A stretch of DNA of 64,000 nt from Acidobacteriota bacterium (GTDB lineage: Bacteria > Acidobacteriota > Terriglobia > Bryobacterales > Bryobacteraceae): assembly GCA_014584705.1 (NCBI GenBank), contig JACTMJ010000018.1, forward strand, positions 1 through 64,000. Direction: 5' to 3'. The notes beneath the pieces are model-generated. The model searched no databases. It worked only from the letters and a program-made list of their open reading frames with translations, and was not told the origin of the DNA. Each line of letters opens with the position of its first letter. Position 1 is the first letter of the stretch. A program made the translations under genes and the position numbers. Positions 23,094 through 25,776 of this stretch are shown piece after piece.

Positions 23094-23321
23094 ATGACGA
23101 CAAGCGAAGTCATCTACGGTCACGCCATCATCTTAGACGATGCCAGGCGTGACATCCATCTTAAACTTCTCCATGATCGAGACGATCTCTTTCGTTGGTA
23201 CACCGAAGACGGCGTCGGGATGCAGGAAGACGGTCGGACGGTAGGCGAGGCGTGGAACATGCTGGTTCACGCTTCCTACAACACCGATTGGCGGCTGCGC
23301 TTTCTTGACGACTGGGAATAG
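23094..23321 (+). CDS. 75-residue acidic protein of unknown function
   Basis: An almost ideal ribosome site (AGGAGGTGAT at 23080-23089) precedes the ATG, so this short frame is very probably translated at a high rate. The protein is acidic, rich in Asp and Trp, with no Cys, no signal peptide and no membrane segment. It ends in WRLRFLDDWE. I do not recognise a family. It is divergent from metX, and the candidate structured RNA at 23400 starts 79 bases after its stop. Confidence 0.75.
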   Translation: MTTSEVIYGHAIILDDARRDIHLKLLHDRDDLFRWYTEDGVGMQEDGRTVGEAWNMLVHASYNTDWRLRFLDDWE

Positions 23322-23399
23322 GGCCAGTCGTCCACCACTCCAGAGTGAACCTGTCCAGCGGTAAACCGCCCTTCCGGCGGGGAACCACGGATTTCGAGC

Positions 23400-23491
23400 A
23401 GACCGGATACCCAGGCCATCGGGTTGTTTTGCACGGTGACGTGGATTCCGCGATTGGCTGACCTGCGGAAGCGATTTCTGGGTACCGGTCT
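23400..23491 (+). ncRNA. candidate structured RNA, three-way junction with two GNRA loops
   Basis: AGACCGGATACCCAG (23400-23414) pairs with CTGGGTACCGGTCT (23478-23491): 14 base pairs with one bulged A. A second helix stacks directly on it: GCCATCG (23415-23421) with CGATTGGC (23451-23458), one bulge. Inside is CACG-GTGA-CGTG (23432-23443). On the 3' side is TGC-GGAA-GCG (23464-23473). Both hairpin loops are GNRA on the plus strand only, which suggests plus-strand transcription. It lies in the 295-base gap between the 75-residue gene and the HDOD gene. A T-run follows at 23520. I do not recognise a known class, and the position suits either a leader of the HDOD mRNA or a separate small RNA. 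Confidence 0.5.
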
Positions 23492-23616
23492 GCTTCGTTC
23501 GCTTTTGTCGCTCCAGGGCCTTTTTTCAAATCTTTGCGTCCTTGTATCTCAAGTTTTTTCTCCGCTCCGCCGATGAAAGTGGGTAGCACCGCAATGGCGG
23601 ATAAAGGAGGACTGGG

Positions 23617-24507
23617 GTGCAGGTTTTATCACAGGCTATAATCGCGCCAACGCCTCTCGATTTTGAACGGATGGATGTGATCTGTCGACGGCTTCCCCCG
23701 TTCCCGCCGCTGGCGTCTCAATTGATCGAGCACTTTTCGCGCCCGGATGCGGATCTCATGGACGCGGTGGCGCTGATTCGATCGGACGCCGTGTTTTCCG
23801 GGGAACTCCTTCGACTGGCCAATTCCGCCGAATTCACAAGTTATGAGGTTTTCGAAGACGTCGCGCGCGCGGTGCTCTATCTGGGCTTCGAACGGGTGCA
23901 GAGCGCGATTCGCCGCATCACTTATGCGCGTCTGATGAAGGATTCCTTCAACCATCCGTTGAGCGCGGAGATTCATCGCAATAACATGGCCACCGCCTAC
24001 CTTTGCGAACGGCTGATGGAGTGCTATGGGGAGGGCGGGGAAGCGGACGGGGTGTGTCCCTATTCGCTGGGCCTCTACCTAAAGATTGGCGCTCTTGTGC
24101 TGCTGCGCGGGTTCCCGCGCGATTATCCGCGCTTTCTCAGCGCGCGGGTTGCCAACGAGACGGAACTGCTGGCGAGTGAACGGGCAATGTTCGGCTTTAG
24201 CCACATTGAAGTCAGCACCCACCTCGTGAAGCATTGGGAGTTTCCCGACGGGTTCCAGACGTTGGTGGCGCAACATGCCGAACCGGCCGAGATCCGGCTG
24301 CCGCTGACTTCCGGAAATGCCGCGCGACTGGCTGCCCGCATGTCCGGCGCATTGGGGTATGCGTTCCTGAAGTCCCTATCCTTTGCGCCGTTCGATAGTC
24401 TGGTTTCTTCGTTACCGGACAGTGAGACCGGGGAGTTTTCGAAGAATGCCGGGGAGTGGAGAAGCCGGATCGATGCACACTTGGAGGCTCTCTCCGTGGA
24501 TGTCTGA
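23617..24507 (+). CDS. HDOD-domain regulatory protein
   Basis: HDOD domains are HD-like folds that have lost the metal-binding His-Asp pair and serve as signalling scaffolds. The 296-residue protein has the family start (LPPFPPLASQLIEHFSRPDADLMDAVALIRSDAVFSGELLRLANS, in parts) and the core LYLGFERVQSAI. The position of the HD pair reads YLKIGAL, so it is non-catalytic. There is no attached GGDEF, EAL or receiver domain. AGGAGG lies 6 bases before a GTG start. The long leader with the candidate RNA suggests post-transcriptional control. Confidence 0.9.
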   Translation: MQVLSQAIIAPTPLDFERMDVICRRLPPFPPLASQLIEHFSRPDADLMDAVALIRSDAVFSGELLRLANSAEFTSYEVFEDVARAVLYLGFERVQSAIRRITYARLMKDSFNHPLSAEIHRNNMATAYLCERLMECYGEGGEADGVCPYSLGLYLKIGALVLLRGFPRDYPRFLSARVANETELLASERAMFGFSHIEVSTHLVKHWEFPDGFQTLVAQHAEPAEIRLPLTSGNAARLAARMSGALGYAFLKSLSFAPFDSLVSSLPDSETGEFSKNAGEWRSRIDAHLEALSVDV

Positions 24508-25699: not shown

Positions 25700-25776
25700 T
25701 GGTAGGCCCGGCGTGACTCGAACACGCGACCCTCTGCTTAGAAGGCAGATGCTCTATCCGACTGAGCTACGGGCCC
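25700..25776 (-). tRNA. tRNA-Arg (anticodon TCT)
   Basis: Reading from 25776, the acceptor GGGCCCG pairs with CGGGCCT, the D arm has AGCTCAG, the anticodon loop is CTTCTAA with anticodon TCT, and the T arm is GCGTG-TTCGAGT-CACGC. The discriminator is A and the CCA end is encoded. It reads AGA codons (and AGG by wobble). Confidence 0.97.

Follow-up and report, generated by a model that had tools for sequence, protein, structure and literature searches.

The closest described counterparts of the element analysed here are intrinsic terminators and the stabilising stem-loops of 3' UTRs, with which it shares a GC-rich stem-loop that follows a gene on the same strand. Intrinsic terminators, however, close loops of 3-8 bases, whereas the hairpin described here consists of 18 pairs around an enclosed part of ~63 bases and is followed by a weak U-tract. 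6S RNA (RF00013) is likewise rod-shaped, its ends paired and its middle interrupted, but it spans ~187 positions, as compared with ~100 for our hairpin. The c-di-GMP riboswitches are structured elements found near signalling genes, and in the present case the neighbouring gene belongs to the HD-GYP-like HDOD family; our element differs from them in that it has no match in Rfam and that a probable promoter of the HDOD gene lies downstream of it. REP and MITE palindromes are intergenic inverted repeats, as is the present element, which is not repeated in its genome according to a DNA search.

The element lies between a small protein gene, termed here orf75, and a gene for an HDOD-domain protein in a 64,000-nucleotide stretch of an Acidobacteriota genome (family Bryobacteraceae, contig JACTMJ010000018.1), referred to as the window (Table 1). 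The original prediction, made from a single sequence, described a 14-pair closing stem with one bulge, a 7-bp helix stacked on it and two hairpins with GNRA loops (GTGA and GGAA) within 92 bases. We found the closing stem with its single bulge to be present and to extend outward by 4 more pairs, to 18 (one of them G-U), while the 7-bp helix is the inner portion of the same stem and not a separate helix. No other stem of this type in the 64 kb is as long, and stems of at least 18 pairs occurred 3 times in total in 20 shuffled windows, i.e. ~0.15 per 64 kb; this strict count was used because a looser one, with G-U pairs freely allowed, gave stems of 18-19 pairs in three of four shuffles. By folding energy, the 92 bases have a z-score of -3.7 when read as the plus strand and of -4.2 as the minus strand. 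Among all 103-base windows of the stretch, 52 of 4260 fold equally well, and among those of similar G+C content 3 of 1914 do.

Table 1. Features of the region from orf75 to the HDOD gene (window coordinates)
Feature	Position	Strand	Basis or remark
orf75, 75-residue small protein gene, upstream neighbour	23094..23321	+	conserved frame
First small hairpin, GGT-aaa-CCGCC-cttcc-GGCGG-gga-ACC	23360..23386	+	sequence reading, fold
Closing stem, 5' arm	23396..23414	+	bulged A at 23407
Inner part, variable; GNRA hairpins originally placed here	23415..23477	+	
Closing stem, 3' arm	23478..23495	+	
Predicted sigma-28 (FliA)-type promoter, TCAAGTTT-N12-GCCGATGA	23549..23576	+	consensus match, conservation
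HDOD ribosome binding site, AAGGAGG	23604..23610	+	read from sequence
HDOD-domain protein gene	23617..24507	+	Pfam PF08668, E 2.5e-32

Comparison with two sister species reveals that the stem is kept by compensation. Their HDOD orthologues are 77% (G003; contig matching JADLCF010000198.1, Bryobacterales SJ214) and 75% (G004; contig matching JADYZL010000619.1, Bryobacterales SJ57) identical to that of the window. Between the window and G003, 10 substitutions fall within the 18 pairs: 11 pairs are unaltered, 4 have one partner changed, 3 have both, and none is broken; when the same 10 substitutions were placed at random, 5 of 200000 placements did as well, or 30 of 200000 with transition bias. 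In G004, 9 substitutions changed 3 pairs on both sides and 3 on one side, again with none broken. Thus, no uncompensated break of the closing helix, named at the outset as the observation that would speak against the structure, was found in either sister. These counts were made on hand-set arms, with a bulge placement which, at one of the 18 pairs, is favourable to pairing, since the counts from the alignment of the covariance model R1 (two pairs changed on both sides) depend on an alignment that is imperfect near a gap; R1 itself rests on three sequences only, of which two are close. Between G003 and G004 the arms differ at 1 of 36 positions and the inner part at 15 of 68, the low count in the arms having by itself a P-value of 0.06 (33 differences placed randomly over 290 bases). 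The G-U pairs of the stem (one in the window, three in G003, two in G004) and the scores of R1 (120.5, 112.5 and 76.9 bits on the plus strand, 37.8, 23.5 and 16.9 bits on the minus strand, for a model built from those same plus-strand sequences) point to the plus strand, to which the element had originally been assigned. We conclude that the closing stem between orf75 and the HDOD gene is a real, conserved, local structure, and probably an ordinary one.

A search with R1 of 237 genomes of the family yielded matches with E < 0.001 in three of them (the window genome G000, G003 and G004), all of one genus, and in these the hairpin is always located between the same two genes, orf75 and HDOD. The covariance-model search originally suggested has therefore recovered two sister species with compensatory changes in the stem, and no significant match beyond the genus; the other matches among the 237 genomes are at chance level (G079, E 0.07; G102, E 0.15). 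A scan of genome contigs again recovered these two sister MAGs, along with a single distant HDOD relative. All three species keep the order hydrolase/orf75/hairpin/HDOD, which in the sisters runs partly over contig ends: in G003 and G004 the contigs with the upstream alpha/beta-hydrolase gene break off within orf75, the two contigs of G003 share 127 identical overlapping bases, as adjacent assembly contigs do, and the assembly of G004 is without the middle of orf75. In G002 a contig edge leaves no more than the end of a related HDOD gene. In G001, where orf75 is located away from the HDOD gene, no rod was found upstream of the latter, and the upstream region shows weak local similarity to that of the window (5 of 500 shuffles were as good) and none to that of either sister (75 and 196 of 500). 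In the few genomes that allow a judgement, the hairpin occurs together with the orf75-HDOD neighbourhood.

The gene orf75 is itself genuine and encodes a small protein that is strongly conserved. It is present in 4 of the 237 genomes, all of one genus (the window genome, G001, G003 and G004), with protein identities of 96% in G003 and 62% in G001, and 20 of the 24 nucleotide differences from G003 are at third codon positions; a Pfam search with the protein gave no match.

We tentatively favour, with confidence just short of even, the reading that the orf75 unit has the long stem-loop at its 3' end, as a transcript-end or insulating hairpin separating this unit from that of HDOD. It is suggested by the position of the hairpin on the strand of orf75, just past its stop codon (74 nt in the window, 70 nt in G003) and ahead of a differently promoted gene. 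The hairpin would be transcribed from the orf75 promoter, would end or stabilise the orf75 transcript, by ending, trimming or protecting the mRNA, and would keep the orf75 unit apart from an HDOD gene with its own sigma-28-type promoter. Since the hairpin is not a canonical terminator, termination, 3'-end protection and processing are not told apart within this reading. A terminator scan (loop of 3-8 bases, then 5 or more T within 8 bases) gave no site at 23396-23510. Of 8 bases in the tail that follows the stem, 3-4 are T in the window and ~5 in the sisters, and an enclosed part of 63 bases is expected to be slow to fold for the purposes of termination. These points count against the favoured reading. 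Canonical terminator patterns show no excess in the window as a whole (46 found versus ~60 expected in 60 kb). In G001, the orf75 orthologue is followed at the corresponding place, starting 67 nt past its stop codon, by a canonical terminator-type hairpin with a T-run (GCCCGGAT...ATCCGGGC-ATTTTG), a comparison that amounts to one case; the best match of R1 in L034 falls on this very spot (17.5 bits, E 0.04). The conserved stem has the appearance of an ordinary hairpin at a transcript end or in a spacer, and not that of a new riboswitch. The first small hairpin, between orf75 and the stem, is found here in all three species, in different registers.

The same rod could also be the body of a small RNA of ~100 nt that acts in trans, whether transcribed from a promoter of its own or cut out of the orf75 3' UTR. 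It is discrete, has paired ends and conserved arms in three species, fits the plus strand better, and its combination of paired ends with a variable middle is compatible with a stable sRNA. Against this, no sigma-70-type promoter was found just upstream of the hairpin, the part that would contact targets is the one that diverges between the sisters (15/68 positions), and outside the orf75-HDOD pair there is no significant match in the 237 genomes. The separate sRNA of the original prediction is thus retained among the candidates, lacks a detectable promoter, and is in our opinion unlikely. We consider it rather doubtful that the element is a genus-restricted structured RNA (an sRNA or processed 3'-UTR RNA) located between orf75 and the HDOD gene of the flagellar regulon, which would have selected ends and a fast-changing middle and would link the two units.

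The interior of the stem bears on a further alternative, namely a cis-acting leader or riboswitch for HDOD on transcripts that start upstream of the hairpin. In the ensemble calculated for the window, the pairing probability is ~0.21 for the GTGA hairpin and at most 0.083 for the GGAA hairpin, and sequence comparison indicates that these are not the same hairpins in G003 and G004. The best inner folds differ among the window, G003 and G004; all three species have GNRA-like letters in the position of the first loop, with the flanking stem not kept. The z-scores of the inner bases (65-67) are 0.3 in the window, -0.7 in G003 and -3.5 in G004. The claim of more structure than expected by chance therefore holds for the closing stem and for the 92-base fold and fails for the inner 65 bases of the window, and the two GNRA hairpins, with their low pairing probabilities and differences between the sisters, are not sustained: the guess from one sequence was right on the stem and wrong on the inner hairpins. 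As the GNRA architecture is not conserved, no aptamer-like core is visible in an inner part that is variable and folds at chance level in two of the three species.

Analysis of the region between the hairpin and the HDOD gene (start codon GTG in the window, ATG in G003 and G004) revealed the motif TCAAGTTT-N12-GCCGATGA ~55 nt past the hairpin. It is identical in G003 and G004 and is kept in 4/4 species with a readable upstream region; in G001 it takes the form TAAA-N16-GCCGAT, although the remaining region has diverged. The E. coli sigma-28 consensus, as quoted in PMC2859248, is TAAAGTTT-N11-GCCGATAA; by comparison with it the HDOD motif has boxes of the sigma-28 type and a spacer longer by one base. 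The pattern TMAAGN{14,15}GCCGAT has 23 matches in the window genome, versus 8 for a reversed control, and the frames downstream of them include FliM, FliF, a C-terminal stretch of FliN and CheW (by Pfam). Most of these matches, including those of FliM, FliF, FliN and CheW, are in stretches with at least one frame open for >200 codons, and part of them may therefore be due to chance or lie inside coding sequence. A FliA/WhiG sigma factor was found above the curated cut-off in 4/4 genus genomes searched. The HDOD transcript start, which from an assumed distance to the -10 box we take to be near 23583, probably falls ~85 nt past the hairpin, which would give a leader of ~35 nt in place of the long leader carrying the element that the original prediction had envisaged.

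An HDOD riboswitch is accordingly assessed as quite improbable from the sequence: the predicted sigma-28-type promoter separates hairpin and gene in a genus whose searched genomes encode FliA, the stem interior is without a conserved core, and Rfam offers no match. Set against these points, the distance from hairpin to HDOD gene is similar in the three species, and in G001, which has a different upstream neighbour, the hairpin is lost or unrecognisable. Calls of riboswitches need a prior check for a promoter downstream of the element. By this analysis, a member of the Bryobacterales has an HDOD protein with a predicted promoter of the sigma-28 type, in keeping with the role in motility reported for some HDOD proteins, described in PMC6543031 as affecting flagella. 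The motif with the 12-base spacer appears to mark a part of the flagellar/chemotaxis regulon (L053, L058, L068, L069, L073), HDOD included; the 101-residue frame that follows it in L069 resembles FlgM (E 0.011, below the Pfam cut-off).

A DNA-level inverted repeat without an RNA role (a protein-binding palindrome or the relic of a small mobile element with inverted repeats) is possible, at a similarly small probability, given its variable middle and the folding of both strands, and is disfavoured by the strand preference (G-U pairs in all three species, better plus-strand scores) and by its single genome copy in a DNA search, a negative of little weight, as that search missed even the sister species.

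Among known elements, a REP or MITE was rejected: the DNA search gave one match in the window genome, its own, and the second place found there by R1 is at chance level (E 0.73). A search of Rfam with the element gave nothing above the gathering threshold, the best hit being a snoRNA family at chance level (E 2.9), and RF00013 did not match either, in agreement with the original remark that the element does not match the c-di-GMP-I, SRP or 6S patterns. 6S RNA was rejected, as the RF00013 search gave no match in any of five genus genomes at E <= 10, while the family was found in 3/3 other members of the bacterial family searched, G006, G029 and G031 (L041, L042, L043). A loss or strong divergence of 6S RNA in the genus is possible; four of its five genomes (G000-G004) are incomplete. 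The only above-threshold Rfam match in the window is a tRNA gene at 25703-25776 on the minus strand.
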